DNA from: Bacteroidales bacterium | GTDB lineage: Bacteria > Bacteroidota > Bacteroidia > Bacteroidales > UBA932 | Length of the DNA: 43,361 nucleotides | Assembly (NCBI GenBank): GCA_024398075.1 | Contig: JAKSJM010000021.1 | Coordinates: 1 to 43,361, forward strand | Reading direction: 5' to 3' | In this document: positions 19,601 through 34,378 of the stretch, piece by piece | Layout: the number at the start of each line of letters is the position of its first letter | How positions within the stretch are numbered: position 1 is the first letter of the stretch | Notes under the pieces: model-generated | Seen by the model: only the letters and a program-made list of their open reading frames with translations | The model's database searches: none | What the model was told of the DNA's origin: nothing | Made by a program: the position numbers and the translations under genes

Positions 19601-19722
19601 TCGAGAACTACACCGACCAATGATGTGGTCTGGGCAAACGCATTCCAGCTAGACATCAGACCGCTTAGAATGACCATTACAGAGATGGAATAGTTCCTCA
19701 ATAAGTTCTTCAAAAACATCAT
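16645..19722 (-). CDS. SusC/RagA-family TonB-linked outer-membrane transporter
   Basis: This protein of about 1025 aa has a signal peptide (to SSWNAFAQ) and a carboxypeptidase-regulatory-like domain (about 35-110). The SusC signature regions DVVVTGIYTRKAESFTGAV and RIESITILKDASAKAIYGSK-AGNGVIVIETK are present, and a C-terminal barrel ends FTLSVTATF with the aromatic terminus expected for outer-membrane insertion. It is the channel subunit of a SusCD importer powered by TonB. I start it at 19722, because a matching promoter -7 box occupies 19741-19748 and so the ATG at 19752 would lie within the promoter. It heads a five-gene operon. Confidence 0.93.
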   Translation of the reverse strand: MMFLKNLLRNYSISVMVILSGLMSSWNAFAQTTSLVGVVLDEMDVPMPGVFVYDAANKGGGTMTSDKGSYKITVSSKCKNLTFEIMGYKTQVVPIGDATIVKLVPDSEMLQDVVVTGIYTRKAESFTGAVQSVTNEELKRVSNSNLFQSLQTLDPSLMVFDNLSQGSNPNAVASMQLRGASSFASESSDMKNPNTPLFILDGFEASLEKIQDLDMNRIESITILKDASAKAIYGSKAGNGVIVIETKSLRSGQTAVSYYGSLQVQMPDLTSYNLCNALEKLEIERREGFYESGMTSGNVGISIPGAYAEIMNIYYERLKRAMEGESTYWLSKPLHTSFDQKHTLEVELGTKDLKTMATLSFKDTPGVMMGSFRDNISGDITTSYRLGKWQFRNIMSYAKMWSEESPYGTFSDYTLMNPYDNPYDANGNVVKSFYVSVLGSKVVTALNPMYNATINTKSSDEYIDFTDNMYVEYQMFKSLKLVGRFGVENKRGTKEEFRPSDHTDFIKFDLAELMNRKGTYMMDSSQSSSFSGDVSAQFNKTLNGKHDIFATAQYTISETKSSNVRIDAEGFPNSKMNSITFARQYAEGTTPSGSASLSRSLGFLLTTGYSYMDRYMFDGTIKASASSVFGTNNRWGTFWSTGVAWNVHNEEFMKNVKWLRQLKFRGSVGTSGNQNYAATMSVPIYRYNNKTYYDGFTGAGLVNMRNPDLGWEKKMDWNVGMDFRTKRLSLISNIYVSDTKNLVFQRSILPSTGFAAVSDNLGKVRNKGVEASINYRFFERGASYMSVFSSIAANDNRILEISDVLRNYNKEQQDNATANNATAPVIQYYDGVPMNSIWVVPSLGIDPVTGKEIFVKKDGSITNSWSATDLENYGSEDPLFNGSVGINGEIKGIGINFTGSFYGGGYSYNSTLVDKVENVSISSNVDKRIYSGRWYYPGQEAQYKNGIKNLTRPTSRFVQKNNVFKLASASIYYEFPYKALEKMKMQRLRVTLYANDIETFSSIKVERGTSYPFARSFTLSVTATF

Positions 19723-19740
19723 TAATTCTTTAATACACAA

Positions 19741-19771
19741 CAAATATAACAATGTGTGTGGTCATTTGAAA
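19741..19771 (-). promoter_or_regulatory. Promoter of the SusC-SusD operon
   Basis: On the minus strand TATATTTG (19741-19748) matches the -7 consensus TAnnTTTG exactly, and TTTC (19768-19771) stands 19 bases upstream in the -33 position. The transcript would begin about 10-15 bases before the chosen start codon at 19722. No adjacent ECF sigma/anti-sigma or hybrid two-component gene was found that would control it. Confidence 0.65.
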
Positions 19772-20043
19772 GGATTAATTTCGTTTTATCGTTTTATCGC
19801 TGATTTCTGTGTTAGTTTTGAACCGTTTCACGTTTGTTTTTCGTATGTAAGACGCTGATTTTGACTGATTTAATTGCTTATATTTAAATGGTTACAAATC
19901 GTAATTAAAATTTAATAAATTGCTTTTGAATTGTTATTGAAATGATATGTTATGTACTTGTTTTGTAAGCGCATGTTGCGGCGACATGATTGTCGCATGA
20001 CGGACGTCAGGATGAGGTCATTTCACGTATTCCCAAGCTAAAG
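19772..20043. other. Divergent regulatory intergenic region with a series of short dyads
   Basis: This AT-rich, non-coding stretch lies between the divergent susC and upxY genes. It holds an octamer direct repeat CGTTTTAT twice in a row (19782-19797), an 8-base repeat TTTCACGT at 19826-19833 and 20021-20028, and three inverted repeats. These are GCGACA-tgat-TGTCGC (19981-19996), TGACG-GGA-like centre-CGTCA (about 19998-20009) and CCAAGC-taaa-GCTTGG (20033-20048); the last overlaps the upxY -33 position. They could be operators or 5' structures. No gene-length ORF is supported here. Confidence 0.5.
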
Positions 20044-20075
20044 CTTGGTGAGTTGGTAGGAATTCGTTATATTTG
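20044..20075 (+). promoter_or_regulatory. Promoter of upxY and the polysaccharide locus
   Basis: TATATTTG at 20068-20075 is an exact TAnnTTTG -7 match, with CTTG at 20044-20047 placed 20 bases upstream. The start codon of upxY at 20093 follows 17 bases later. The right arm of the dyad CCAAGC-taaa-GCTTGG covers the -33 element, so a protein binding that dyad would compete with RNA polymerase. No long flanking inverted repeats of the kind that border invertible B. fragilis capsule promoters are seen. Confidence 0.6.
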
Positions 20076-20092
20076 TGTGATAGCTCAAAAGT

Positions 20093-20584
20093 ATGTTGGA
20101 TAAAAGTTGGTTTGCCCTGAGGATTAAGTACGTTCATGCTGAAAGGATTTCTTGTCAGTTGAATGCATTGTATCCTTATGTGCAGACCTGTTTCATCCCG
20201 CCCGTCAGCGGTCTTCTGTTTGCGCTTACCACAAGGGATGTTCTGGATGATTTCATTCATTGTCGTGCTGATGGCAAGTATGTGGGGTTCATCTGGGACA
20301 AGGCTACCAAGAATCCTGTTGTGGTTCGTGAGAAGGCGATGGATGACTTCATTCGCGTCTGCGGTGTCATGCAGTATCCTATCGTCATGACTGATCGTCC
20401 ACAGGTAACCCTTGGTTCACATGTGAGGGTCATTGACGGACCTCTCAAGGGCGTAGAAGGTAGGGTAGTGAGGATGAAGAAATCTCGACGCATCCTTGTC
20501 GATGTGGAAGGCGTTCTTTGGGCTGCGACCGAGTTCATTGGTCCTGACCTCCTGGAGGTCATAGAGGATGAACCGGCGAGTTGA
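20093..20584 (+). CDS. upxY: UpxY-family transcription antiterminator (NusG paralogue)
   Basis: This 163-aa protein fits the NusG-like UpxY family that prevents premature termination in capsule operons of Bacteroidales. The N-terminal NGN domain is recognisable from WFALRIKYVHAERISCQLNA through KNPVVVREKAMDDFIRV (about 1-100). The C-terminal KOW domain is at about 105-160 (LGSHVRVIDGPLKGVEGRVV and a basic stretch MKKSRR). It is the first gene of the polysaccharide locus, as is usual. No UpxZ-type partner gene (the inhibitor of other loci's UpxY proteins in B. fragilis) follows it. Between it and capF lies a structured leader on which it may act. Confidence 0.88.
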   Translation: MLDKSWFALRIKYVHAERISCQLNALYPYVQTCFIPPVSGLLFALTTRDVLDDFIHCRADGKYVGFIWDKATKNPVVVREKAMDDFIRVCGVMQYPIVMTDRPQVTLGSHVRVIDGPLKGVEGRVVRMKKSRRILVDVEGVLWAATEFIGPDLLEVIEDEPAS

Positions 20585-20629
20585 TAGGGGATAAGTCCCT
20601 GAAAATGTGCTCTTTCAATCGTATGTGTC

Positions 20630-20707
20630 ATGAAAATTACAGAAAGAGGACATAAAAAAGAGATCTGGACACCAGTGCTGGATAGTCGAGGACCGGATGC
20701 CTTATAG
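20630..20707 (+). CDS. Possible 25-codon leader ORF in the capsule leader
   Basis: An ATG at 20630 opens a 25-codon frame beginning MKITERGHKKEIW and ending with TAG at 20705-20707, only two bases before the hairpin at 20710. It lies in the 175-bp gap between upxY and capF. There is no strong Shine-Dalgarno, which is common in this phylum. Chance ORFs of this size are frequent, so coding is unproven. Its exact placement relative to the hairpin suggests that a terminating ribosome would cover the stem. Confidence 0.3.
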   Translation: MKITERGHKKEIWTPVLDSRGPDAL

Positions 20708-20709
20708 GC

Positions 20710-20737
20710 CACGAGGGCGTATGCCCGCGTGACTTTT
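20710..20737 (+). promoter_or_regulatory. Leader hairpin, possible attenuator or pause site between upxY and capF
   Basis: CACG-a-GGGC (20710-20718), loop GTAT, and GCCC-g-CGTG (20723-20731) form a GC-rich stem of eight pairs with one central A/G mismatch, followed by ACTTTTGTC. The short U run makes it a weak intrinsic terminator. The right arm and tail (GCGTGACTTTTGTCG) also resemble the GCGTG-T-run end of the enterobacterial ops element recognised by RfaH, another NusG paralogue. It sits 28 bp before capF, where a UpxY-responsive or ribosome-controlled attenuator would be expected. Confidence 0.5.
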
Positions 20738-20759
20738 GTCGTATGAAAAAGATTATCGA

Positions 20760-21959
20760 ATGAAAATACTAGTGACTGGAGCCAAGGGATTTGTAGGAAA
20801 GAATCTTTGCTCCCAGCTCAGAAACATCAAGGAAGGCAAGGCGCGGTGGTATGGCGAACTCGTCGTGGACGAAGTCTACGAGTTCGACGTCGACAGCGCC
20901 GAGGAGGAGCTGAAGCGCTGGTGCGCTGAAGCGGACTTCGTCTTCAACCTTGCAGGTGTGAACCGTCCGAAGGACGCGTCGGAGTTCATGCAGGGAAACT
21001 TCGGCTTTGCCTCGACATTGCTCGATACACTTCAGGAGTGTGGAAACACTTGTCCTGTAATGCTTTCCTCTTCCATTCAAGCGTCTCTGACTGGCCGTTT
21101 CGGCGACTCGGAGTACGGTAGAAGCAAGAAAGCCGGCGAGGAACTGTTCTTCAGATACGGCGAGGATACGGGAGCCAAGGTGCTCGTGTACCGCTTCCCA
21201 AATCTCTTCGGAAAATGGTGCCGCCCGAACTACAACAGCGTGGTGGCCACATTCTGCCATAACATTGCCAATGATCTCCCTATAACCATCAACGACCCAT
21301 CGGTGGACATGGAACTGCTCTACATCGATGACCTCGTGGACGAGCTGATCGGTGCGCTGAAGGGGAATGAGCATCGCTGCGACTATGACGGCATGGGCGT
21401 GCTGCCTCTGAAGCATGGACAGTACTGCTACTGCCCTGTAACACACAAAGTTACCCTCGGCGAACTAGCGAAGATGATCCAGTCATTCGCTGACCAGCCA
21501 AAGACGCTCACCATACCGGAGATACCTTCTGGCAGCCTTGCTAAGAAACTATATAGCACATACTTAAGCTACTTGCCGAAGGAAAAGGTCGCATTCGACC
21601 TGAAGATGAATTTGGACGACAGAGGCTCCTTCACGGAGCTGGTGCGCACGCTGGACTGCGGCCAGGTGAGCATCAACATCAGCAAGCCTGGGATCACGAA
21701 AGGACAGCATTGGCACCACACCAAGTGGGAGCTCTTCATCGTCGTCAGCGGCCACGGCCTCATACAGCTTCGCAAGGAGGGAACCGACGAAGTGCTTGAG
21801 TATGAAGTGTCTGGCGAGCGCATCCAGGCAGTGCACATGCTACCAGGTTACACTCATAACATCATCAACCTCAGCGACTCGCAGGACCTTGTGACTGTGA
21901 TGTATGCCAATGAATCCTTCGATCCAGGCAGGCCAGACACCTACTTCGATCCAGTATAA
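20760..21959 (+). CDS. capF: CapF-like bifunctional UDP-sugar C3-epimerase/reductase
   Basis: This 399-aa protein has two domains, as in S. aureus CapF (WbjC/FnlB). The N-terminal SDR reductase has MKILVTGAKGFVGKNL at residues 1-16 and YGRSKKAGEE at about residue 120 (Y/K catalytic pair). The C-terminal cupin (about 280-399) carries the zinc-site motif GQHWHHTKWE and later HMLPGYTHNI. The cupin domain epimerises C3 and the SDR domain reduces the 4-keto sugar made by CapE, in the pathway to UDP-L-FucNAc. The ATG at 20760 gives the exact Rossmann start; a TTG at 20736 in the hairpin tail is not used. capG follows after 9 bp. Confidence 0.92.
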   Translation: MKILVTGAKGFVGKNLCSQLRNIKEGKARWYGELVVDEVYEFDVDSAEEELKRWCAEADFVFNLAGVNRPKDASEFMQGNFGFASTLLDTLQECGNTCPVMLSSSIQASLTGRFGDSEYGRSKKAGEELFFRYGEDTGAKVLVYRFPNLFGKWCRPNYNSVVATFCHNIANDLPITINDPSVDMELLYIDDLVDELIGALKGNEHRCDYDGMGVLPLKHGQYCYCPVTHKVTLGELAKMIQSFADQPKTLTIPEIPSGSLAKKLYSTYLSYLPKEKVAFDLKMNLDDRGSFTELVRTLDCGQVSINISKPGITKGQHWHHTKWELFIVVSGHGLIQLRKEGTDEVLEYEVSGERIQAVHMLPGYTHNIINLSDSQDLVTVMYANESFDPGRPDTYFDPV

Positions 21960-21968
21960 TAAACGCTT

Positions 21969-23159
21969 ATGGAAAAGACTCCGAAATTCGACTACAGCGA
22001 TGTGCATTTCCAGGACAATGGAAAACTGAAGCTCATCATCATTGTCGGAACACGTCCTGAAATCATCAGGCTTGCGGCCGTCATAAACAAGTGCCGCAGG
22101 TACTTCGACGTCATCCTGGCGCATACGGGCCAGAACTATGACTACAACCTGAATGGAATTTTCTTCCGCGACCTCAAACTCGCTGAACCAGAGGTGTATA
22201 TGGATGCCGTAGGCGATGACCTCGGCGCTACATGCGGTAACATCATTAACTGCAGCTACAAGCTTTTTGCTGCCACTAACCCAGACGCCGTGCTGGTGTT
22301 AGGTGACACAAACAGCTGCCTCAGCGTGATAGGAGCAAAGCGCCTTCACATCCCTATCTTCCACATGGAGGCCGGCAACCGCTGCAAGGACGAGTGCCTC
22401 CCTGAGGAGACAAACCGCCGCATCGTCGACATCATCTCCGACGTGAACATGGCGTACAGCGAGCACGCGCGCTGCTACCTGGCTGACTGTGGCCTGCCGA
22501 AAGAGCGCACATACGTCACCGGCAGCCCGATGGCGGAGGTGCTCCACGAGAACCTCGCCGACATCGAGGCGTCAGACGTGCACAAGCGCCTTGGCCTCGA
22601 GAAGGGCAAATACATACTGCTGAGTGCCCATAGGGAAGAGAACATTGACACAGAGAAGAACTTCCTCAGCCTTTTCAATGCCATAAATGCAATGGCACAG
22701 AAATATGACATGCCTATCCTCTACAGCTGCCATCCACGCAGCCGTAACCGCCTCGCAGCCAGTGGCTTCCAGCTCGATCCTCGCGTGATCCAGCATGAGC
22801 CGCTCGGCTTCCACGACTACAATTGCCTTCAGATGAACGCGTTCGCCGTGGTCAGCGACTCGGGAACATTGCCAGAGGAGAGCAGCTTCTTCACCAGCGT
22901 GGGGCATCCTTTCCCTGCAGTGTGCATACGCACCTCGACGGAGCGCCCGGAGGCCATCGACAAGGGCGATTTCATTATCGCCGGCATCGACGAGAAGAGC
23001 CTTCTGCAGGCAGTCGACACCGCTGTGGAGCTGTGCAAGGCAGGGGATCACGGCATCCCCGTTCCTGACTACACCGACGAGAATGTGTCCACAAAGGTGG
23101 TGAAGATCATCCAGAGCTACGTGGGCATTGTTAACAAAATGGTTTGGAGAAAATTCTAG
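21969..23159 (+). CDS. capG: UDP-N-acetylglucosamine 2-epimerase family (CapG/FnlC-like)
   Basis: The 396-aa protein shows the WecB-type 2-epimerase fold: LKLIIIVGTRPEIIRLAAVI, AHTGQNYDYNLNGIFFRDL, LVLGDTNSC, FHMEAGNRCKDECLPEETNRRIVD and SDSGTLPEESSFF. Beside capE and capF, its role is the final C2 epimerisation giving UDP-L-FucNAc, not ManNAc formation. It is encoded 9 bp after capF and 3 bp before capE in the same operon. Context supports CapG, but family membership alone would not exclude WecB. Confidence 0.9.
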   Translation: MEKTPKFDYSDVHFQDNGKLKLIIIVGTRPEIIRLAAVINKCRRYFDVILAHTGQNYDYNLNGIFFRDLKLAEPEVYMDAVGDDLGATCGNIINCSYKLFAATNPDAVLVLGDTNSCLSVIGAKRLHIPIFHMEAGNRCKDECLPEETNRRIVDIISDVNMAYSEHARCYLADCGLPKERTYVTGSPMAEVLHENLADIEASDVHKRLGLEKGKYILLSAHREENIDTEKNFLSLFNAINAMAQKYDMPILYSCHPRSRNRLAASGFQLDPRVIQHEPLGFHDYNCLQMNAFAVVSDSGTLPEESSFFTSVGHPFPAVCIRTSTERPEAIDKGDFIIAGIDEKSLLQAVDTAVELCKAGDHGIPVPDYTDENVSTKVVKIIQSYVGIVNKMVWRKF

Positions 23160-23162
23160 CTT

Positions 23163-24254
23163 ATGAGCGTATTTGAAAATAAGACACTTCTCATCACAGG
23201 CGGCACCGGCAGCTTCGGAAACGCAGTGCTGCGTCGCTTCCTGGACTCCGACATCCGCGAGATCCGCATCTTTTCGCGTGACGAGAAGAAGCAGGACGAC
23301 ATGAGGCATCTGCTCCAGCAGAACCGCCCCGAGGTCGCAGGCAAGGTGAAGTTCTACATAGGCAATGTCCGCGACCGTCAGTCAGTGGACATCGCGATGC
23401 GCGGCGTGGACTACGTCTTCTCGGCAGCGGCGCTCAAGCAGGTGCCGAGCTGCGAGTTCTTCCCTATGGAGGCTGTCCGCACAAACGTTGAGGGCACGAA
23501 CAATGTCCTTCTCTCCGCCATAGAACATGGCGTGTCGAAGGTGGTGGTTCTCTCCACAGACAAGGCCGCTTACCCTATCAACGCCATGGGCATCTCCAAG
23601 GCAATGATGGAGAAGGTCGCCATCGCGCAGGGACGCGCTCTGGGCGATGATGCTGCGACGACCATCTGCTGTACGCGTTATGGCAATGTGATGGCTTCCC
23701 GCGGCTCTGTCATACCTCTGTGGGTGGAGCAGATGATGGCGGGCGGCCCGATCACAATGACCGACCCGAACATGACCCGCTTCATGATGACGCTCGACGA
23801 TGCCGTAGACCTCGTCGTCTACGCCTTCACTCACGGTCGCAATGGTGATCTATTTGTCCAGAAAGCTCCTGCGGCTACGCTTTCTACACTTGCGGCAGCA
23901 CTGAAGGAGATTTACTCTCAGCTGGATCCTAAGTATGCCTCAACCGAGGTCAAGGTGATTGGCACTCGTCACGGAGAGAAGCTCTACGAGACCCTTGTCA
24001 CTCGCGAGGAGATGCTTCGTAGCGAAGACATGGGCGACTACTTCCGCATCCCGTGCGACACGCGCGACCTGAACTACGACAAGTTCTTCACCGAGGGCGA
24101 TGACCGCATCTCCCGTACCGAAGACTACCATAGCCACAACACCCGCCGCCTCGATGTCGAAGGCATGAAGGAGCAGCTCCTCCGCCTTCGCTTCATCCAG
24201 GAGGACCTCGGGCTCATCCCTGCCGCCAAATCGAGAGAGATAAGGAGTGAATAG
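23163..24254 (+). CDS. capE: CapE-like UDP-GlcNAc 4,6-dehydratase/5-epimerase
   Basis: This 363-aa SDR enzyme catalyses the first step of UDP-L-FucNAc synthesis from UDP-GlcNAc. The nucleotide-binding loop is GGTGSFG (13-19), AALKQVPSCE lies at 89-98, and the catalytic region is YPINAMGISK, with Met142 and Lys146 forming the MxxxK motif that replaces the usual YxxxK in CapE. Late motifs include TRYGNVMASRGSV and GTRHGEKLYE. Together with capF and capG the complete three-enzyme route is present. The stop codon abuts the next glycosyltransferase ATG (24255). Confidence 0.93.
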   Translation: MSVFENKTLLITGGTGSFGNAVLRRFLDSDIREIRIFSRDEKKQDDMRHLLQQNRPEVAGKVKFYIGNVRDRQSVDIAMRGVDYVFSAAALKQVPSCEFFPMEAVRTNVEGTNNVLLSAIEHGVSKVVVLSTDKAAYPINAMGISKAMMEKVAIAQGRALGDDAATTICCTRYGNVMASRGSVIPLWVEQMMAGGPITMTDPNMTRFMMTLDDAVDLVVYAFTHGRNGDLFVQKAPAATLSTLAAALKEIYSQLDPKYASTEVKVIGTRHGEKLYETLVTREEMLRSEDMGDYFRIPCDTRDLNYDKFFTEGDDRISRTEDYHSHNTRRLDVEGMKEQLLRLRFIQEDLGLIPAAKSREIRSE

Positions 24255-25409
24255 ATGGCTCGCAGGAAAATAGATGTGCTCATCATAGCACGCCCCGATC
24301 ACTCATACCAGATTTACAAGGCTCTTTCTGCCCAGAAGGAGCTCTCGTTTCTGTATGTGACTTTCGGCCTTTTCCCTAGGTGGCTGTCTTTCCTTCGTCT
24401 TCCTAAGCTTCGCTATGTTGATGGTAATGCCCTGATCCTTAAGTGGTTCACAATCCTCCATACGCTTTATTTCAAGCTTCACTGGACCAAGAGGTTTGAT
24501 GAGAAGAAGTGCTTTGAGAGGTCGATCCGGAATCTGGCGAAACGGTACGAGCCCCGCATCATTCATTACTGGCCTGACTACTGTGACGAGACCGTCCATG
24601 AGCTGAAGAAGGCTTTTCCTGATGTTATAACATTGGCCGAGATGTATATGCCGAATCCGGTCACTATCATAGACGACATGAAGAGGGTATATGCGGAACA
24701 TGGGCTTGCCTTTAGGAATGATTTCCTCGAGGGTTATGCATCTGTAGTAGGCTCAAGATTCAACGATGCCGATTACATCATGGTAGCGTCGAAGTATGTG
24801 GAAGAGACTATGAAAGTGACATTCCCGGACAAGAAGTATCTGGTCACATCCTATGGCATCCAGCGCTCTCCTTACTATCGTTTCTCCCTGAAGGAGACTC
24901 CGGTTAAGAAGTTCGCCTATTCGGGCGTCATCAGCCTCGAAAAAGGTGTGGATGTGATTTGCGACTACTTTTCCGAGCATCCTGAGTTTGAACTTCACCT
25001 ATACGGAAAGATGTCAGAATCACAGAAGGACCTCTTCTCCAAATACTCGTCTTTCCAGAATCTTGTCTTCCATGGCCCTGTATCAAGGGAGGAACTATTC
25101 TCTGCCTTCCAGCACATGGATGTGGGCATTCATCCTAGCCGCTTCGACGCCTACTCGCTCGCTGTCGGCGAGGAGATCGGCGCCGGCTTGCCGGTGATCG
25201 TGTCGGATAAGACTGGAAATGCCTTCGATATTCGTGAGAATGGGTGGGGAACTGTGTTTGAGCTGAATAATCTGAATAGTCTAGACTTAGCCATCGACAG
25301 AGTTCAAGAGTACTACAGTGATTATCAGAAAGCGATAGATGCGTCTGTACATGCATCGCATCTGTCGTATGGAGAGCAAATCATACAATTATACCACAAG
25401 CTTGTCTAA
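24255..25409 (+). CDS. GT4-like glycosyltransferase
   Basis: The 384-aa protein has a GT-B-like layout. The C-terminal half holds KKFAYSGVISLEKGVDVI, LHLYGKMSES, VFHGPVSREELFSAFQHMDVGIHPS and EEIGAGLPVIVSD, which match glycosyltransferase family 4. The N-terminal acceptor domain (1-200) is divergent. It is presumably a cytoplasmic enzyme adding one sugar to the lipid-linked repeat unit; donor and linkage cannot be told. The start follows directly on the capE stop. The segment 25141-25200 coding for the donor-site motif is about 70% G+C by hand count, against about 40% just downstream. Confidence 0.85.
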   Translation: MARRKIDVLIIARPDHSYQIYKALSAQKELSFLYVTFGLFPRWLSFLRLPKLRYVDGNALILKWFTILHTLYFKLHWTKRFDEKKCFERSIRNLAKRYEPRIIHYWPDYCDETVHELKKAFPDVITLAEMYMPNPVTIIDDMKRVYAEHGLAFRNDFLEGYASVVGSRFNDADYIMVASKYVEETMKVTFPDKKYLVTSYGIQRSPYYRFSLKETPVKKFAYSGVISLEKGVDVICDYFSEHPEFELHLYGKMSESQKDLFSKYSSFQNLVFHGPVSREELFSAFQHMDVGIHPSRFDAYSLAVGEEIGAGLPVIVSDKTGNAFDIRENGWGTVFELNNLNSLDLAIDRVQEYYSDYQKAIDASVHASHLSYGEQIIQLYHKLV

Positions 25410-26439
25410 AGGAGATTCATACGATCTGGTATTCGTGACGAATATGCCCTCGTTCTACAAGGTCCGCCTATGGAATGAGTTAAATCGTCATGTGCGTGTA
25501 TATGCCATTTTTGTTGATTCTATTGAAAAAGATAGAAATTCGGACTTCGTATCTGTGAAACCGGAGTTTTCTTATTCGGTGCTTTCCTCTTCGGGAGTTG
25601 CTGGTAAGTCGTTGGAACTCTTGCGTATCTTACGCCGGGTTAATTATAAGAAACTTGTTGTAGGTGGTTGGGAATCAATTCCTTCCATGCTGTCGTATTT
25701 CATATCACCTAAACGAAAGAATGCGGTGTTCTGTGAATCAAGCATATATGAAATCCACCGCTCCTTTCTTAAGGACTCAATAAAGAAGCTGATTCTTTCA
25801 AGGACTTCGGTCGCTCTTCCATCAGGACAAGCTCAAAATGATATCTTGAACCTGTTTGGCTACAAAGGCAGAGTCATTTATACAGGTGGGTGTGGCTTGT
25901 TGAATTATGTGAGTCAGCCTCCATATGAGCCTAGGAAGAACGCAAGGAATTATTTGTATGTCGGAAGACTGGCAGATGTGAAGAATCTCAAGATACTTGT
26001 TGAAGTGTTTAATGACCTGCCTGACTTGCATCTCGATATCATTGGATTCGGAGAACAATACAATGAGCTTAAGGCGCTGGCTGCTCCCAATGTGACATTG
26101 CTTGGTGCCGTGAATAATGTGGATTTGCCATCTCATTATCAGTCACACGACGTCTTTGTGTTGCCTAGCAAGGTGGAACCATGGGGATTGGTGGTTGAGG
26201 AGGCGCTGAACAATGGTCTCCCAGTGATTGTAAGCGACAGCGTAGGCTGTAAGGATGATTTGGTAAATAGCAGCAATGGCCTGGTGTTCGCTCACGATGA
26301 CAAGATTGCTCTTCGAGATGCGATTCTGAAGACTCAAGACATCGGCTTTTATAATTCTCTTAGAATGGGGGTATCCCAAATAGATTTTTCATCCAGAATA
26401 GAAAGTCAAGTCAATGCTTATTTGAAGCTATTAGAGTAG
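25369..26439 (+). CDS. GT4-family glycosyltransferase
   Basis: This 356-aa protein has a GT-B fold with the classical GT4 motifs in its C-terminal half: NYLYVGRLADVKNLKILVEVF, LDIIGFGEQYNELKAL, DVFVLPSKVEPWGLVVEEAL and NNGLPVIVSDSVGC. The EPWGLVVEEAL motif is the EX7E donor-phosphate site. The chosen start MESKSYNY at 25369 overlaps the preceding gene by 41 bp; an upstream ATG at 25339 overlaps still more and adds no conserved residues. Donor and acceptor are unknown. The stop is followed immediately by the flippase ATG. Confidence 0.88.
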   Translation: MESKSYNYTTSLSKGDSYDLVFVTNMPSFYKVRLWNELNRHVRVYAIFVDSIEKDRNSDFVSVKPEFSYSVLSSSGVAGKSLELLRILRRVNYKKLVVGGWESIPSMLSYFISPKRKNAVFCESSIYEIHRSFLKDSIKKLILSRTSVALPSGQAQNDILNLFGYKGRVIYTGGCGLLNYVSQPPYEPRKNARNYLYVGRLADVKNLKILVEVFNDLPDLHLDIIGFGEQYNELKALAAPNVTLLGAVNNVDLPSHYQSHDVFVLPSKVEPWGLVVEEALNNGLPVIVSDSVGCKDDLVNSSNGLVFAHDDKIALRDAILKTQDIGFYNSLRMGVSQIDFSSRIESQVNAYLKLLE

Positions 26440-27738
26440 ATGAGTTTGTTAGTGACATATAGAGATAAGCTTAGGTCTTCCGCTATGGCGAAGGGTTTTT
26501 TGACGACCCTTCTCGGTAGTGGTACGGCTAAGGTCATACTCGTTCTTGCCACATTTATTTTTACGCATCTGTTGAGTAAAGACGACTTCGGCAGTTTCAG
26601 CTTTGTTCGAAACACGCTGAATGTCGTCCTGACAATGTGTGCATTGAATTATGTGGAGTTGCTGACAAAGTTTACAGCGGAAATAGAGTATGACAAGCGA
26701 GCACTCTCGAGGGCGGTACTCCTATTCATCGTCTCGCTCGTCATTTGTGTGGTGCTTGGACTAGTGCTCCTGTTTATGCCGCAGGCTGCATTGTCTTCCA
26801 TCACAGGAGATCCTTCTCTAAGGTTCTTTTTCAGGCTTATAGGATTGCTTCTGCCTTTGTTTATGATCCAGCCGCTGACAGAAGCCGTATTCAGGGGCCT
26901 GAAGATGTTCAAACTCATTGGAGTGCTACAGACATGCACTGCGCTTCTGTTTGTTGCCTTTGTCACTGTGGGCTCGTTGATTGCGGGAAAGAAAGGCGCT
27001 GTCGCCGGCCTACTTATATACTATCTGGCTTACTCCCTGGTGAGCGTTTGGTTCTTCATCAAAAAAGTGGATCCTACTCTTTGGAGAACAAACAGATCGT
27101 TAATGCTAAGATCTGAGTCGAAGGTCATCTGGACCATGATCCTGCCGGTATTTCTGCTGTCATTCATTGAAGCTCCTGTGAACTGGTGGTCCCAGGTCTT
27201 GATGACAAGATATGACTCAATGGGCACTATCGGTAGCATGTCCGCTATCCTTCAGATAAGAAATATCCTTATCATTGTTCCGAATTATTTCTTCAGCACC
27301 TTCATCACGTTCCAGGCATCCATGAACGCTGAGGGGCAACATGATAAATATTTCAAATATTTGTGGAAAGCGTTTGTTTGGTGCCTTATCGTAGGAATAG
27401 TGTTGTCTGTCTTAATGTGGGTTCTTAGCCCATTAATGCTTAGCCTATATGGAAAGGCATATGTAAGCGACGTGCCTGCATTACATGTTGCCATGCTTTC
27501 GTTTCCATTAATCATGTCTGTTAGCCTTTTAAGGGGGAGCTTAATGATAAAAGAGCATCAACGACTTATGTTAATTACATCTATTACAGCGTGTTTGGCA
27601 CAAATTACAATGATGTATGTGCTCTTGTCGTCAGGTGTGTCCCCGGTAATTACATATTTTTGGGCACAGCTGTTATTTTATGGAATACACTTCACTTGTT
27701 TCGTTTCTTGTTGTGTATTTGATAGCGTAAAGAAATAA
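26440..27738 (+). CDS. wzx: Wzx-type lipid-linked oligosaccharide flippase
   Basis: The 432-aa protein has about 12-14 hydrophobic helices and the N-terminal pattern of polysaccharide flippases in the MOP superfamily (KGFLTTLLGSGTAKVILVL, FTHLLSKDDFGSFSFVRN). It moves the undecaprenyl-linked repeat unit across the inner membrane. It abuts the preceding glycosyltransferase and is followed by the polymerase gene after 19 bp. The assignment rests on topology, N-terminal signature and operon position. Confidence 0.88.
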   Translation: MSLLVTYRDKLRSSAMAKGFLTTLLGSGTAKVILVLATFIFTHLLSKDDFGSFSFVRNTLNVVLTMCALNYVELLTKFTAEIEYDKRALSRAVLLFIVSLVICVVLGLVLLFMPQAALSSITGDPSLRFFFRLIGLLLPLFMIQPLTEAVFRGLKMFKLIGVLQTCTALLFVAFVTVGSLIAGKKGAVAGLLIYYLAYSLVSVWFFIKKVDPTLWRTNRSLMLRSESKVIWTMILPVFLLSFIEAPVNWWSQVLMTRYDSMGTIGSMSAILQIRNILIIVPNYFFSTFITFQASMNAEGQHDKYFKYLWKAFVWCLIVGIVLSVLMWVLSPLMLSLYGKAYVSDVPALHVAMLSFPLIMSVSLLRGSLMIKEHQRLMLITSITACLAQITMMYVLLSSGVSPVITYFWAQLLFYGIHFTCFVSCCVFDSVKK

Positions 27739-27757
27739 TTTTTGTTCAATAATTGGT

Positions 27758-29014
27758 ATGGCTATTTTCTTGTTAGTTTTGTTATCACTTCTGATGGCTT
27801 TCCAATTGTCCGTGGCAGTGATTTCAAAAGACAAAAAGCAAATATTCTCTCCTGCTATTTTCTTGAGCATTTATTTAACCTATTATATTGTTCTCCCTTT
27901 TCTGAAGGGAGGCGGAAACGCTTCTGAAAAAGCTCAGATTCTACTGATTGCAGGCGCACTGATCTTTTACATCGTATTTCAGATCGCTTTTCAGTATTTG
28001 CCAGGAAAGTATTCATTCCCTAAAGTGAATAGCTTGTTAACAACCGACAATTCATTTATTATTGCAATCGTCTTGTTCATGATTGCATTTGTCGGTAATG
28101 GTATTTTTAACGGATTTGGTGTGTCAATATTGTCTTCCAATTCTAGAGAGGATATCATTTTTGATGAAGGGGATTCATTTGGACATATAGAGATGTATGT
28201 TACATACTTGATTTCCTTATTCACTTTTGCTTGTCCATTGATATACATATCGAAAAAGAGGATTACGCCTCTTCTTTTGGTTATGATGGTAATATCAATG
28301 GCGATTTATATTATCGGCGGTTTCAGGTATCGAATTCTGGTGTTTTTCGTGGTATTTGCTGTCGTTTATTATCTTTATCCTACTGCTCGTAGAATCAATT
28401 TATTCATTGTATTGCCGTTGGTGATCGCTCTCTATTTGCTTATGGGAGTAATAGAAACTACAAGAATGTATGGCCAAGGACTAGATGCAGCTGCGCTTAA
28501 AGAGTTAACACAATCTGGAGAGATTCGTGAAGCTAGGGAAGACGTTCTGGTATATGAGTTTTCTGCAGAATGTATGGATAGATACAAAGTGGACGATTTC
28601 ATTCTGTTTGAGCCATTGGTTAACGCCGTATGTAGTCCTTTGCCTCGTAGTATTTTCCCATGGAAGCCAAAAGGAACATACATGCGTGAAGCTAATATGA
28701 AGATATATGGTACCGTAGCTCATGGAAATGCTTTCTTGAATATAACAGAAGCCTATATCTCTTTTGGGTGGTTGGGAATCATACTTTATGCTTTATTCAT
28801 GGGATGGCTATCTAGAGTTTTTTGGTCCAATTATCTTTCTAATAGTTCCTCGATAGGTTCAATAGTGCTGCTGGCTCTTTATAATGGTACACTCTATCAA
28901 GTAATAGCAAGAGGCTATATGGCTTTCGCTCTTACTACTTTCCTCTACTATATAGTCATCCCATTCATCTTGGTATTGATATATAATTTCATCATGCGTT
29001 TAGTGAAGCAGTAG
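27758..29014 (+). CDS. wzy: Wzy-type oligosaccharide repeat-unit polymerase
   Basis: This 418-aa integral membrane protein has about 10-12 hydrophobic segments and one large loop (about residues 220-330) containing charged and aromatic residues and CSPLPRSIFPWKPKGTY. That is typical of O-antigen/capsule polymerases, which share little sequence otherwise. The late segment NAFLNITEAYISFGWLGIIL matches the conserved end of the loop. It polymerises repeat units at the periplasmic face. The gene is visibly AT-rich compared with capF-capG-capE, as is common for wzy genes. Confidence 0.85.
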   Translation: MAIFLLVLLSLLMAFQLSVAVISKDKKQIFSPAIFLSIYLTYYIVLPFLKGGGNASEKAQILLIAGALIFYIVFQIAFQYLPGKYSFPKVNSLLTTDNSFIIAIVLFMIAFVGNGIFNGFGVSILSSNSREDIIFDEGDSFGHIEMYVTYLISLFTFACPLIYISKKRITPLLLVMMVISMAIYIIGGFRYRILVFFVVFAVVYYLYPTARRINLFIVLPLVIALYLLMGVIETTRMYGQGLDAAALKELTQSGEIREAREDVLVYEFSAECMDRYKVDDFILFEPLVNAVCSPLPRSIFPWKPKGTYMREANMKIYGTVAHGNAFLNITEAYISFGWLGIILYALFMGWLSRVFWSNYLSNSSSIGSIVLLALYNGTLYQVIARGYMAFALTTFLYYIVIPFILVLIYNFIMRLVKQ

Positions 29015-29016
29015 AT

Positions 29017-30201
29017 ATGCCTAAACTCCTTCAAATCAACGTCGTCAACAATATGTTGAGCACAGGAAAGATCTGTGAGGATATCGCCAAGGTGGCAGGT
29101 GCTCATGGATGGGAGTGCTATGTGGCGTATGGTAGGAAGTCTCGTCCAAGTGTAAGTGAAGTGATTCATGTGGGTACGAGGCTGAATACATATGTACATT
29201 ATCTTGAGTTCAGGTTATTAGACGACGAAGGACTTGGTTCAAGGATGTCGACAAGGCTTCTTGTGCGTAAGATCAAGCAGCTTAAACCAGACATCATTCA
29301 CCTCCACAATATTCATGATCACTATTTGAATTACCGAATACTCTTTGAGTATCTATCGCACACGGGTATTCCTGTCGTCTGGACTCAACATGATTGCTGG
29401 TCGTTCACTGGTGGATGCATGTATTTCGACATGCTTGGATGTGAGAAATGGCGTACTGGTCAGTGTGAAAAGTGCCCTGACAATAGAGCGCTGATCAATA
29501 TGGCGGAGAGAAACTTCAGGATAAAGAAAGACATGATTAGTTCGCTAAAGAGTCTTACTTTTGTACCAGTTTCAGACTGGCTTCATGAGCTTTTGAAACA
29601 GTCTGTGCACGGAAGTCGTGAAATAGTGACGATCCATAATGGCATCGATATCAAACGCTTCCGTCCATCTGTGGAAGATGTGGACAAAAATGCAAGAGAG
29701 AGATTCTCCATACTCGGAGTCGCTGCTGTATGGGATGCCAGAAAGGGTCTGGAAGATTTCAAGAAACTGAGAACACTTCTTCCTGAGGAGTATGAAATCA
29801 CACTTGTGGGTTTAAGTGAATCGCAGATCAATAGCCTTCCTGATGGAATCAAGGGCATTAAGCGCACACAGAACGTGGATGAGATGGTGAGACTGTACTC
29901 TTCTTCAAATGTGTTCGTCAATCCTACGTATAGTGATAATTTCCCGACAGTAAATGTGGAAGCATTGGCATGTGGGACACCGGTAATTACATATAGGACT
30001 GGCGGCAGCCCTGAAGCAATAGATGCTTTTACAGGAGCCGTGGTGGAGCGTGGAAATGTTGAGGATCTAGCGAGATGCATCATGTCACTGAGGCAGAATC
30101 CGCTTGAACCTGCTGCCTGCAGGGCTCGTGCGGAGCGCCTGTTTGACAAGGATGCATGTTTCGAGGCGTATTTGGGCATATATAATAGTTTGCTGCGATG
30201 A
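29017..30201 (+). CDS. GT4-family glycosyltransferase with Cys-rich N-terminal motif
   Basis: The 394-aa GT-B enzyme opens with LLQINVVNNMLSTGKICEDI and has the stretch TQHDCWSFTGGCMYF followed by CEKWRTGQCEKCP. This set of five cysteines characterises one bacterial GT4 subgroup and might bind a metal. The C-terminal half has FSILGVAAVWDARKGLEDF, ITLVGLSESQ, NVFVNPTYSDNFPTVNVEAL and ACGTPVITYRTGGSPE, the full GT4 donor site. It overlaps the next gene by 4 bp (ATGA), so the two are translationally coupled. The sugar specificity is unknown. Confidence 0.9.
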   Translation: MPKLLQINVVNNMLSTGKICEDIAKVAGAHGWECYVAYGRKSRPSVSEVIHVGTRLNTYVHYLEFRLLDDEGLGSRMSTRLLVRKIKQLKPDIIHLHNIHDHYLNYRILFEYLSHTGIPVVWTQHDCWSFTGGCMYFDMLGCEKWRTGQCEKCPDNRALINMAERNFRIKKDMISSLKSLTFVPVSDWLHELLKQSVHGSREIVTIHNGIDIKRFRPSVEDVDKNARERFSILGVAAVWDARKGLEDFKKLRTLLPEEYEITLVGLSESQINSLPDGIKGIKRTQNVDEMVRLYSSSNVFVNPTYSDNFPTVNVEALACGTPVITYRTGGSPEAIDAFTGAVVERGNVEDLARCIMSLRQNPLEPAACRARAERLFDKDACFEAYLGIYNSLLR

Positions 30202-31400
30202 AGCGCCTTCTGATTGTTACAAACCATTTTTATCCAGAGACATTCAGATGCAATGACATTGCGTTTGAACTGTCTTCCAGAGGATATGAGGTGTCTGTAC
30301 TCACAGGCATTCCAGACTATCCTCAGGGGCGGTTTCATGATGGTTATGGCGTCTTCAAAAAAAGGACGGAGACGGTCAATGGAGTGAAGGTTTATCGCTC
30401 GTTCTTGATTCCTAGAGGGAATGGTGGAAAACTGAGACTTATGATAAACTACCTTTCCTCTTTTATATGTATGACACTCAGAGCCTTCTGGCTTGCTATA
30501 GTCCATAGATATGACGCGGTCCTGGTACACGAGACATCTCCGGTAATGATTGGTACACCTGCGAAGCTGGTGGCAAGACTTCAAGGCATTCCGATGTATT
30601 TCTGGGTCCTCGATCTTTGGCCAGAGAGTCTTCGCGCTGCTGGGGGAATAAACAGTCCTAAGATACTTGGCTTTTTCTCGTGGTTGACCAAGAGGTACTA
30701 TAAGGCCTCTAGAAAGATATTGGTCAGCTCTCAGGGTTTTGAGCAGTCCATATGTCAGATGGGAGATTTTAGGGATAAACTTGTCTATTTTCCTAACTGG
30801 TGTGATAAGGGGATGGCTTCGGCTGAGATGAAGGCTGTTGATGGTCTACCTGATGGTTTTAAGGTTATGTTTGCAGGAAATGTCGGCGAGGCTCAGGATT
30901 TCGAGAACATTGCCAAGGCGGCATTGGTGCTAAGAGATAAGGACATCCATTTCGTGATTATAGGTGACGGACGTAAAATGCCATGGTTCAAAAACTTTGT
31001 TGAAGAGAATGGTTTGTCGTCGACAGTGCATCTGCTTGGACGTCATCCAGTTGAGATGATGCCTTCTTATTTCGATAAAGCGGACGTAATGCTTGTAAGC
31101 CTCAAGGACGAGGATATTTTCAATCTTACCCTGCCCGCTAAGGTTCAGGCATATATGGCGGCCGGCAAGCCCATAGTTGCCATGATGAATGGCGAAGGTC
31201 CGAGAATCATAGACGATGCTGCTTGCGGAATACACGTTCCTGCTGGAGATTACCTCTCACTGTCTGATGCTATTTTATCCATGTCGATGAAGTCTGGGGA
31301 GGAGTTATCTTGTATGGGAAAGAATGCTAAGGATTACTGTGAATTACATTTCTCATATGTATCCTGCATAGATAAATTAGTCAGTGAGATTCTAGTATAG
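30198..31400 (+). CDS. WbuB-like GT4 glycosyltransferase, candidate L-FucNAc transferase
   Basis: The 400-aa enzyme opens with LLIVTNHFYPETFRCNDIAF and continues with VSVLTGIPDYPQGRFHDGYG, HETSPVMIGTPAKLVA and FWVLDLWPESLRAAGG. This pattern matches the WbuB/WcaI-like glycosyltransferases, in which WbuB is associated with L-FucNAc transfer in E. coli O26-type loci. The C-terminal donor site is MFAGNVGEAQDFENIAKAA, FVIIGDGRKMPWFK and VQAYMAAGKPIVAMMNGEG. With a complete UDP-L-FucNAc pathway in the operon, L-FucNAc transfer is the natural inference, but it is not proven by sequence. Confidence 0.88.
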   Translation: MKRLLIVTNHFYPETFRCNDIAFELSSRGYEVSVLTGIPDYPQGRFHDGYGVFKKRTETVNGVKVYRSFLIPRGNGGKLRLMINYLSSFICMTLRAFWLAIVHRYDAVLVHETSPVMIGTPAKLVARLQGIPMYFWVLDLWPESLRAAGGINSPKILGFFSWLTKRYYKASRKILVSSQGFEQSICQMGDFRDKLVYFPNWCDKGMASAEMKAVDGLPDGFKVMFAGNVGEAQDFENIAKAALVLRDKDIHFVIIGDGRKMPWFKNFVEENGLSSTVHLLGRHPVEMMPSYFDKADVMLVSLKDEDIFNLTLPAKVQAYMAAGKPIVAMMNGEGPRIIDDAACGIHVPAGDYLSLSDAILSMSMKSGEELSCMGKNAKDYCELHFSYVSCIDKLVSEILV

Positions 31401-31403
31401 ATT

Positions 31404-32576
31404 ATGAGACAAAGATATATAGTAGCCATTCTTTTGATGGTGGCTTTTCTGGTGGTGTCATTGACATACCCTATCGTTCTGAAACTTGCAAGGCGGTGGG
31501 GCATATATGATAATCCAAATATCAGGAAGAATCAGAAAGACCCAGTTCCAGTGTTTGGTGGTGTTGCCAGTTTCATCGGCATCCTAGTGGGTATTACTAT
31601 AGGTGAGTTCTTCTTTGATCCTACCTTGCTCAGTCTGACTCTTGCGTCTATGACAATTATGCTTGTAATTGGTGTCTGGGACGATGTCAAGGATATCTCA
31701 CCTGTTTTGAGATTCCTTATCGAGATGGCTGTAGTCTATCTTTTCATGATGATGGGCGGGCGCTATATCGATGACTTTCATGGCCTTTGGGGAGTAGATC
31801 AAATCACACTTTTCAAGGCGATACCATTATCACTTCTCGCTGGTGTCGGTATTATCAATGCTACAAACCTTATAGATGGTATTAATGGTTACTGTTCTGG
31901 ATTTTGCATTATGTCGTGTGCCTTGTTCGGGACATTCTTCATTTGTACAGGTAATCTGCCGATGGGATGCATCGCTTTCATTTGCCTTGGCGCTATTCTT
32001 CCATTCTTCATACACAATGTGTTTGGTAAGAAATCTCTCATGTTCCTTGGTGATGGAGGGTCATTGATGATGGGTATGCTAATGACAGCTTTTGTATTCA
32101 ATGCAATTACATCGGTAATAGATATAGATTGGTTCCTTGAAGATGGTTTCGGCGTAGTTCCTTTCACGCTTGCTGTTATGTCTATACCTGTGTTTGATAC
32201 TTTGAGGGTGATGATGGGCAGGATACTTAACAATAGATCGCCATTTTCGCCTGATAGGACTCATTTACACCATGTTTTTCTCGATCTTGGTTTTTCGCAT
32301 GTGGGAACCACATTGTCGATTCTTGCGATGAATTTTTTTATTGTTGTGCTGTGGTTTTTAGCATGGAAACTTGGATTGTCTGTTGATGTTCAACTATATG
32401 TCGTTCTTGCTTTTGGTGTTCTATGCGTGTGGGGATTTTACTATTTTGCAAAAAGACATATTAACAGAAATACGAGAACTCTTCGTTTCCTTCAGTCTAT
32501 TGCAAAGTATTCTCACTTTGAGAACAAACCTTTCTGGATAGCATTACAAAGGATTGTAGATCGTAGTGTCGTGTAA
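31404..32576 (+). CDS. WecA/MraY-family undecaprenyl-phosphate phosphosugar transferase
   Basis: The 390-aa polytopic protein has about 10-11 helices. It carries PVFGGVA (49-55), the paired aspartates in GVWDDVKD (93-94), the catalytic NATNLIDGINGYCSG (152-166) and, in the late cytoplasmic loop, RTHLHHVFLDLG near residue 286. It transfers a UDP-HexNAc phosphate to undecaprenyl phosphate and so starts the repeat unit. UDP-GlcNAc or UDP-L-FucNAc are the likely substrates. The position after the glycosyltransferases is common in Bacteroidales loci. It is preceded by the WbuB-like gene with a 3-bp gap. Confidence 0.92.
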   Translation: MRQRYIVAILLMVAFLVVSLTYPIVLKLARRWGIYDNPNIRKNQKDPVPVFGGVASFIGILVGITIGEFFFDPTLLSLTLASMTIMLVIGVWDDVKDISPVLRFLIEMAVVYLFMMMGGRYIDDFHGLWGVDQITLFKAIPLSLLAGVGIINATNLIDGINGYCSGFCIMSCALFGTFFICTGNLPMGCIAFICLGAILPFFIHNVFGKKSLMFLGDGGSLMMGMLMTAFVFNAITSVIDIDWFLEDGFGVVPFTLAVMSIPVFDTLRVMMGRILNNRSPFSPDRTHLHHVFLDLGFSHVGTTLSILAMNFFIVVLWFLAWKLGLSVDVQLYVVLAFGVLCVWGFYYFAKRHINRNTRTLRFLQSIAKYSHFENKPFWIALQRIVDRSVV

Positions 32577-32582
32577 TTTATT

Positions 32583-33497
32583 ATGCAGACAAGTACAAAG
32601 ACAAGCGAAAGGTTGCTTTGGGTAGATATTTCCAAGGGAATAACTATTATCCTGATGGTTATTGGGCATGCTAATTTACCTATTTATGCTCGTAACTTAA
32701 TCTGGGCATTTCACATGCCTCTTTTTTTCATCCTTTCAGGTTTTACAACTAAGTGGAGTGAATTGTCATTTCGAACATTGCTTCAAAAACGAATCAAGTC
32801 TTTGCTTGTTCCTTTTTTGGGGTACTCTATTATAGATTTTATTATTTATTACTTCTACTTGGATGGCCCTGATTTGATAACGATATTACAAGATGGTTGG
32901 GATCTAGCGCTATGGTTTATTCCGGTGCTTTTTTTATCTAATTGTTTGGCGTATACGCTAAAGAAAGTTTCAAATCTGCGCCTTCAAATTCTCGTTAGCT
33001 TTGTTATTTCCCTTTTGACACCACTAATGTCATATTTTCATGTTGATGTACCATGGTCATTGGCTGTTGTCCCATATGCATCTCTCTTTGTAGTCTTAGG
33101 GTCGAACATGAATTGTGTTAAACAATTATACAGCTCTCGTAGTATTCTGTTGCCGATCGTTTATTTGATCATTATTATGACAGAGGCCTGCTTTTTCAGA
33201 TTTGATATGGCTACAAATAAAACTGTGCCTTTTGTTGTGCTAACCATTGGTGCACTTGCTGGCTCATTGATGATTTTCAATGTATCGACGAGGTTTTCAT
33301 CCGAGTCCCTAGTTTCGCGGATTCTATCTTCTGTTGGACGGGAGACGTTTGTTATAATTGCATTTTCACAAATACTAATTATGTTGGCGAATAGGTATCT
33401 GTCAATAGGTAGTATCTTAAAGTACTTATTACTTGTTGTGGCATTGTTCTCTATCTGCAAGCTCAAGAATTTCATCGTTAGAAGACTATTTTGCTGA
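32583..33497 (+). CDS. Acyltransferase-3 family membrane protein, probable O-acetyltransferase
   Basis: This 304-aa membrane protein with about 9-10 hydrophobic helices starts with the acyltransferase-3 signature RLLWVDISKGITIILMVIGH followed by FHMPLFFILSGF. Such proteins acetylate sugars of lipid-linked intermediates or polymers. It is 6 bp after the WecA-like gene and last before an internal promoter-like site and wza. The gene is AT-rich like wzy. The acetylated residue is unknown. Confidence 0.88.
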   Translation: MQTSTKTSERLLWVDISKGITIILMVIGHANLPIYARNLIWAFHMPLFFILSGFTTKWSELSFRTLLQKRIKSLLVPFLGYSIIDFIIYYFYLDGPDLITILQDGWDLALWFIPVLFLSNCLAYTLKKVSNLRLQILVSFVISLLTPLMSYFHVDVPWSLAVVPYASLFVVLGSNMNCVKQLYSSRSILLPIVYLIIIMTEACFFRFDMATNKTVPFVVLTIGALAGSLMIFNVSTRFSSESLVSRILSSVGRETFVIIAFSQILIMLANRYLSIGSILKYLLLVVALFSICKLKNFIVRRLFC

Positions 33498-33501
33498 TTC
33501 T

Positions 33502-33535
33502 CTTGTGACATTTATTTTGATTATTCTTATTTTTG
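33502..33535 (+). promoter_or_regulatory. Putative internal promoter for wza-wzc
   Basis: TATTTTTG at 33528-33535 matches TAnnTTTG, and CTTG at 33502-33505 lies 22 bases upstream, slightly wide for a -33 element. The gap before wza (57 bp) is the largest in the biosynthetic part of the locus, so a separate input for export genes is plausible. A five-codon frame (ATG at 33545, stop 33560-33562) overlaps the wza start codon. Confidence 0.4.
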
Positions 33536-33554
33536 TAAGATTACATGAACGAAT

Positions 33555-34373
33555 ATGATTAAAAGAATTATTAATATCTTCGCCTCTGCCGCTATCATCG
33601 CAATGATGTCATCATGCTCTTCCGCATCTCATATTGCATACATGCAAGATGTAACATCAGGAGATAATTTGTGCGTTAATACATTTACGTCTATTATTAC
33701 CGTAATGCCAGGTGACGAGATAAGCATCATCGTAAACTCTCAGGATCCTGAACTATCACAGCTTTTCAATCTTCCTTATGCTGGTCAGCGAATAGGTGCT
33801 CAGACATCTCAGACAGGAAACTTCACTCAGGGTGTTTGTGGATATTTCGTAGACTCTGAAGGTTGCATTGATTTCCCAGTGTTGGGCAAACTCAAGGTGG
33901 CTGGCCTTTCACGCGAAGGGGTAGCAAGTATGATTAAGCAGAATCTTAAGGAGTCGAATCAGCTTCAAGACGCCGTCGTAACCGTGAACTTTATGAACTT
34001 GGCTGTCTCTGTTATGGGAGAGGTCATGGTTCCTGGCAGGTATTATATCGATCGTGACGAGGTGACTATCCTTGATGCTCTGTCAAGAGCTGGAGACCTT
34101 ACAATTTATGGCATCCGTGAGAAAGTTATGGTCATCAGAAATGAAGGTGGGGCACAGAAGACATATACAGTCGATCTTACATCTGCTTCAAATCTGTTCT
34201 CTTCTCCAGTATATTATCTTCGTCAGAATGATGTGGTATATGTACAGCCAAACTCTAAGAAGGTTGGTGAGTCAACTGTTAATGGAAACAATACCCGTTC
34301 AGCTTCATTCTGGATTTCTCTTTCATCACTTGCCGCAAGTATTGCGACAGTAGTTATCAACGCCGTTAAATAA
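33555..34373 (+). CDS. wza: Wza-type polysaccharide export outer-membrane lipoprotein
   Basis: This 272-aa lipoprotein (MMSSC, Cys 21) has a Poly_export domain (residues about 45-130, with MPGDEISIIVNSQDPEL and GYFVDSEGCIDFPVLGKLKV) followed by one SLBB domain (VSVMGEVMVPGRYYIDRDEVTILDAL). It forms the outer-membrane export channel together with Wzc. At 272 aa it is shorter than E. coli Wza, as is usual in Bacteroidota. The C-terminal hydrophobic segment (about 250-270) probably crosses the outer membrane. It is 5 bp upstream of wzc. Confidence 0.92.
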   Translation: MIKRIINIFASAAIIAMMSSCSSASHIAYMQDVTSGDNLCVNTFTSIITVMPGDEISIIVNSQDPELSQLFNLPYAGQRIGAQTSQTGNFTQGVCGYFVDSEGCIDFPVLGKLKVAGLSREGVASMIKQNLKESNQLQDAVVTVNFMNLAVSVMGEVMVPGRYYIDRDEVTILDALSRAGDLTIYGIREKVMVIRNEGGAQKTYTVDLTSASNLFSSPVYYLRQNDVVYVQPNSKKVGESTVNGNNTRSASFWISLSSLAASIATVVINAVK

Positions 34374-34378
34374 GACCA

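Follow-up and report, generated by a model that had tools for sequence, protein, structure and literature searches.

It is a question of regulation whether the gap between a upxY-like gene and the capsule genes following it holds a control point of its own, and if so, of which kind. For Bacteroides, the part of the literature available to us reports an action of UpxY at the 5' leader upstream of upxY (PMC7819879). At the locus described here, found in 43,361 nucleotides of DNA from a Bacteroidales bacterium (the window, to which all positions refer), a preliminary description had placed a second control point after upxY, namely a short leader ORF ending directly before a terminator-like hairpin. 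The conserved two-hairpin element described below, which is also present in relatives, supports such a control point, and the way in which it might work is discussed thereafter.

Organization of the locus

The window upxY stands at the head of a polysaccharide operon of co-directional genes, i.e., capF-like, epimerase, CapD-like, glycosyltransferase, Wzy, acyltransferase, export and Wzz/AAA-type genes (Table 1). The Pfam search, which covered the operon ORFs with those at 24255 and 25339 outside it, gave no match for the ORF 26440-27738. An upxZ gene is absent after upxY in the window and the capF-like gene is found there instead. The UpxY protein is, by its scores, probably a divergent family member: it matches NF033644 with an E-value of 2.4e-21 and 76.4 bits at a curated cut-off of 100, and its KOW match reaches 21.9 bits at a cut-off of 22.3. 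A scan of the GTDB collection with this protein gave one locus, L002 (JAKSJL010000109.1, Bacteroidales bacterium, horse faeces), encoding a UpxY that is 64% identical over residues 1-159 and followed by capF. Its score of 83.9 against NF033644 is also under the cut-off of 100, and the proteins of L006, L008 and L010 are over it. The first block of the L002 upxY-capF gap is identical to the window in 30 of 32 letters.

Table 1. Features at the upxY-capF junction and the operon behind it.
Feature	Position	Strand	Sequence or basis
Promoter-like -7 box (TAnnTTTG), directly 5' of upxY	20068..20075	+	TATATTTG; sequence
upxY-like NusG paralogue gene, 163 aa product	20093..20584	+	NCBIfam NF033644 and KOW matches
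Leader ORF, 25 codons, ATG 20630, TAG 20705-20707	20630..20707	+	MKITERGHKKEIWTPVLDSRGPDAL; read from sequence
Hairpin P1	20663..20698	+	R1 57.3 bits and covariation
Hairpin P2 (stem of the preliminary description)	20710..20731	+	CACG-A-GGGC / GCCC-G-CGTG
Tail 3' of P2; candidate site of pausing, about 11 nt 3' of the stem	20732..20745	+	ACTTTTGTCGTATG
capF ATG (capF-like gene, next gene 3' of upxY)	20760
Co-directional ORFs, mainly polysaccharide genes	20760..36805	+

Two hairpins between upxY and capF

The hairpin P1 is traversed by the leader ORF and was missed in the preliminary description, and it is the most conserved part of the element. Its outer stem ATCTGG/CCGGAT (20663-20668 pairing with 20693-20698) encloses inner pairs, a bulged U at 20676 and the apex GCT-GGAT-AGT at 20677-20686. 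Related elements belong to two classes, to both of which the bulged U and GCU-N4-AGY are common. In class A, an outer stem differing between most sequences encloses about ACACCRGTGCTGNNNAGTCNAGGA, and in class B the box is YTGCTGGATAGYGC, with a bulged-U stem bearing GCU-GGAU-AGY. Across the elements the loops read GGAU, GGAC, GUAG, GUUA or GUAU.

For class A (alignment A3, 7 sequences), 91.7% of cells are paired compared to 77.6% in shuffled alignments with none of 500 shuffles as high, and the covariation score is 0.44 vs 0.04-0.14 when slid, the structures of both classes having been chosen from the same sequences that were used for these figures. The corresponding values for class B (A1, 11 sequences, the variant L018 excluded) are 94.3% vs 85.0% (0/500 shuffles as high) and 0.47 vs 0.04-0.20. 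A modest test is provided by 17 held-out class B elements, in which 76 of 85 cells of the five outer pairs are paired (28/5000 shuffles as high). Together with four class B elements that are not adjacent to upxY, 94 of 105 outer pairs hold (2/5000), and these four alone (18/20; 833/5000 shuffles as high) give no significant signal. The model built from A3, R1, which stands for class A, gave one strong match in the window (20655-20704), 3' of upxY. R2, the class B model built from A1, gave no match with an E-value below 0.05 in the window, and no strong second copy 5' of upxY was obtained with either model; these scans cover R1- and R2-like sequences, and an upstream target of another sequence may exist. 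The Rfam 15 covariance models did not match positions 19700-20900 at E up to 5, and in 15 relative loci they gave eight matches (E up to 1), all of them outside the element.

The fold of P2 alone is only mildly good and not exceptional (-14.9 kcal/mol in its 43-nt surroundings, z -1.56, 14 of 200 shuffles as good). Its conservation in L002 raises it above chance, since all 22 letters are identical there despite a upxY and a capF with 69.9 and 85.1% identity in DNA and a spacer just 5' of P2 that is unalignable between the two loci. Across 34 elements the sequence of P2 varies with the pairing retained. As the MAFFT columns (A4) are too ragged to count pairs, the halves of the stems were swapped between sequences: own halves fold with -11.5 kcal/mol and swapped halves with -7.4 kcal/mol, with none of 2000 permutations as low, the halves being cut at each sequence's own loop, which somewhat favours own pairs. 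The test comprised 34 of 42 elements, picked by eye, and left out L006, L007, L013, L019, L098, L099, L102 and L103, in which stem or anchor is unclear.

P2 is a genuine hairpin, though probably not a simple terminator as proposed in the preliminary description. The short U run reported behind the stem is present in the window (ACTTTTGT) and is found in a minority of the elements, the relatives often having (A/T)CCC or (A/T)CCT at the same place: U-rich tails were counted in 9 of 34 A4 elements, the window included, and in one of seven class A tails, so that 25 of 34 tails are not U-rich and a conserved U run immediately 3' of the stem, a trait of intrinsic terminators, was not found. P2 is likewise not listed in a terminator scan of 18000-22500, which requires at least 5 pairs whereas P2 consists of 4 pairs, a mismatch and 4 pairs. 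On the tail sequences and this absence from the scan, P2 was rejected as a conserved intrinsic terminator.

Occurrence of the element and its relation to UpxY

By sequence comparison it was shown that the composite two-hairpin element lies by most upxY loci examined in the genus and that its class tracks the UpxY clade. A UpxY match (E up to 1e-20) was found in 23 of 200 genus genomes, the window's included, many of the genomes scanned being incomplete assemblies. A related element adjoins upxY in 17 of these 23 loci, among them L018, a variant read by eye. Five of the 17 are of class A (window, L003, L004, L005, L006) and 12 of class B, with the element before upxY in two (L011, L019). Class A comprises in addition L002 (also L027, L095), L031 (also L097), L056 and L098.

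The model scans of the genus covered 200 + 160 genomes, with G360-G399 outside; the short calibration of these models makes their E-values rough, and stricter filters were applied in scans over 40 genomes. R1 gave nine places with E-values below 1e-11, seven of which are the model's own sequences; eight of the nine adjoin upxY on the same strand, the new ones being L098 (with upxY) and L056 (without). L056 precedes nucleotidyltransferase/ManC-like and GDP-mannose dehydratase genes, and the UpxY of its genome (L005) is of class A. Four other R1 places (L054, L055, L057, L096) were read by eye as chance.

In the 160 held-out genomes R2 gave 17 places at E up to 2e-6, and at each of them a UpxY homologue is encoded within about 150 nt on the same strand, the element following upxY in 11 and preceding it in six; none of three weak held-out matches lies beside upxY. 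Four more R2 places were found in the first 200 genomes, i.e., L070, L071 and L072 (E 1e-5 to 7e-5) and L076 (E 0.0013, included for its likeness to L071). They precede a Polysacc_synt_2 or Bac_transf gene and are located in G060, G068, G016 and G075, four of the six genomes with a upxY that lacks an element nearby; the upxY of G068 and that of G075 lie about 1.7-1.8 kb downstream of the non-adjacent element. The other two, G074 and G063, contain upxY and no element in the 38.8 kb searched, and none was found before the operons of L118 and L119. The R2 places L073, L074, L075, L077, L114, L115 and L117 were read by eye as chance, with L078-L087 and weaker rows of the first 200 genomes outside this reading.

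Beyond the genus, 393 genomes of the order gave no convincing R2 match: seven match at E up to 1e-3, of which L088 is of the same genus and the other six were taken as chance, five lying over long ORFs and one (L094) beside no recognised polysaccharide gene. R1 matched the window only in 80 genomes of the order. The element is therefore not a general target of UpxY.

In a tree of 43 UpxY proteins the eight class A rows form one side of a branch (SH-aLRT 100), and the distribution of element classes A and B on the tree needs one change. As upxY and element are linked, this agreement could be plain co-inheritance. In the alignment, a segment of about 17 residues following FVP is missing from the class A proteins (4/4 aligned rows) and present in the four aligned class B rows. 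The printed starts of L003, L004, L005 and L098 agree with its absence, and the class B protein of L108 is also without it. This difference might bear on the different element class.

The motif TAnnTTTG is the -7 box of the Bacteroidetes promoter consensus. Such a box lies 5' of upxY and none was found by a scan of the 220 nt 5' of the P1 apex in the window, which argues that the capsule genes are probably transcribed together with upxY, the element being located between them. In 10 of 29 upxY-adjacent class B loci, and also in L098, the box lies 46-74 nt 5' of the apex, so the element is probably part of an ordinary 5' leader there. Just 5' of the upxY promoter -7 box, the window has a palindrome, CCAAGCTAAAGCTTGG (20033-20048), with a counterpart CCAAGCTATGCTTGG in L002 (1777-1791), both possible operators. 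Runs of 8-10 G followed by TAAA lie between upxY and the element in L007, L010 and L012 and are candidates for slipped-strand variation. Two class B loci have a tmRNA gene 5' of upxY and in the same orientation (L007 2031-2429, L012 2047-2445).

The leader frame

The leader ORF and the stem behind it had been placed correctly by direct reading, including the 2 nt between the stop codon, reached after the ORF has traversed P1, and P2. The importance given to the frame is borne out in the relatives. When an ATG is counted if it stands at most 60 nt before the box with no intervening stop, the box frame has one in 27 of the 29 class B loci adjacent to upxY, compared to 3 and 6 for the two other frames; for class A the counts are 7 of 9 compared to 3 and 0. 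The frame remains open as far as +60 in 27 of the same 29 class B elements, the next frame in 10 of 29, and the third is mostly closed by the box. As the loci are related, these counts are not independent and are inflated. The ATG lies usually about 20-50 nt 5' of the P1 apex and exactly 20 nt 5' of GCT in 22 of the 29 upxY-adjacent class B elements. These patterns support that the leader frame is translated.

The frame and the stem recur in relatives, but the position of the stop, taken in the preliminary description as the key geometry, varies. The frame stops within the P1 loop in L004, L005, L006 and L056, 5' of P2 in the window, L008 and L108, inside P2 in L020, at the P2 3' end in L021, L088, L106 and L107, and 3' of P2 in L031, the remaining loci likewise stopping elsewhere beyond P2. 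In seven loci (L011, L019, L099, L103, L110, L111, L116) the reading frame of the box runs through into upxY in phase, and the element may therefore encode the regulator's own N-terminus. No general third-position excess was found outside the box, where the three codon positions vary about alike; thus the frame seems to be kept and the peptide not. The closest relative, L002, keeps both hairpins without an ATG in the box frame, hence the core shared by this pair is DNA/RNA and not the ORF. An in-frame ATG is also lacking in all four non-adjacent class B elements, which retain the apex form.

A putative loading and pause signal in a translated leader

We lean moderately towards the explanation that the element is a signal for UpxY loading and pausing inside a translated leader, ahead of the 16-kb capsule operon. 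Transcription would start 5' of upxY, and UpxY would thereby be made without passing the signal. The polymerase would pause at the element with P2 as pause hairpin; a pause about 11 nt after P2 is suggested with the spacing as the single indication. UpxY, on which the element presumably depends, would be loaded at this place through contact with the paused complex, the P1 apex or both, and the modified polymerase would then read the long operon, whereas in the absence of UpxY the majority of polymerases would fail ahead of the operon or inside it. Such a signal would account for where the element is placed, for its two classes, and for its occurrence both linked to upxY and away from it. Translation of the leader may control whether P1 forms, keep a ribosome close, or both. 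A tentative and rather doubtful extension is that translation acts as a gate for recruitment of the NusG paralogue. The hairpin used for loading would lie in a short translated leader, sometimes in the start of upxY itself, so that the factor would board only a polymerase followed by a ribosome; the window upxY would stand before this gate.

It is unlikely that UpxY simply binds nascent P1 itself, as LoaP does the dfn hairpin in the available part of PMC12691694, with an incidental leader ORF. The conserved apex, the bulged U and the covarying outer stem would fit this explanation, as would the non-adjacent class B elements, which keep the apex form with no in-frame ATG; however, P1 has no UNCG loop, and a start codon in 27 of 29 loci, even if related loci inflate the count, is hard to call incidental. 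Quite improbable is classic translation-coupled attenuation, in which a ribosome at the leader stop would mask the left arm of P2 acting as intrinsic terminator, as proposed in the preliminary description. This geometry is present in the window, whose tail belongs to the U-rich minority, and the leader frame recurs, but the mechanism is not conserved: stop positions and tails vary, most tails are not U-rich, L002 retains P2 with no ATG in that frame, and in the seven loci with a frame passing P2 into upxY, ribosomes would always traverse P2. Finally, a UpxY-independent cis RNA, i.e., a metabolite- or ribosome-sensing polysaccharide leader found near upxY as both mark such operons, is very improbable, since the strong apex conservation and the places before polysaccharide genes with no adjacent upxY (L056, L070-L072, L076) are set against the facts that those genomes nonetheless encode UpxY, that the element class tracks the UpxY clade and that 17/17 held-out matches adjoin upxY.

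If the preferred explanation of a loading and pause signal holds, a family of capsule regulators would have a candidate target that is defined and transferable. The control point could then lie 3' of the regulator gene, and also ahead of polysaccharide genes that have no such gene beside them, and how translation contributes to the recruitment of NusG paralogues would become directly testable.

Comparison with known systems

In the parts of the literature on UpxY and NusG paralogues available to us no description of the element was found, and no literature joining UpxY to a leader peptide was found. Leader-peptide attenuators of the trp, his and pyrBI type have a short frame that overlaps a hairpin 5' of biosynthetic genes. 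Like these, the window element appears to have a conserved open frame with a start codon; unlike these, it has no conserved stop position or terminator, and the peptide letters do not look conserved.

UpxY, in work by Saba from 2024, is reportedly recruited to the paused polymerase, involving non-template and upstream duplex DNA and nascent hairpins. As in the UpxY/UpxZ system of Bacteroides, a NusG-like factor expected to carry the polymerase past an early block is encoded at the head of a polysaccharide operon, but the window element lies 3' of upxY, no upxZ is next to it and a leader frame enters the element. The motif GGATAGCG has a weak likeness to ops. With RfaH/ops of Enterobacteria, the element shares the use of a short conserved signal in leaders of long operons, but the hairpin of ops, a DNA element of 12 nt, is small, and P1 has a longer covarying stem; ops joins pausing with recognition, according to the accessible part of the source (PMC7819879). 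As for LoaP at dfn/mln in Bacillus, a long biosynthetic operon has a specialised NusG paralogue and, in its leader, a small RNA hairpin. The dfn hairpin is of the UNCG type in the part of the study available (PMC12691694), whereas P1 is without a UNCG-type loop and has a bulged U, a second hairpin and a leader frame. By analogy, and as far as the available parts of these sources go, LoaP and RfaH would provide precedents for a hairpin- or pause-assisted recruitment.
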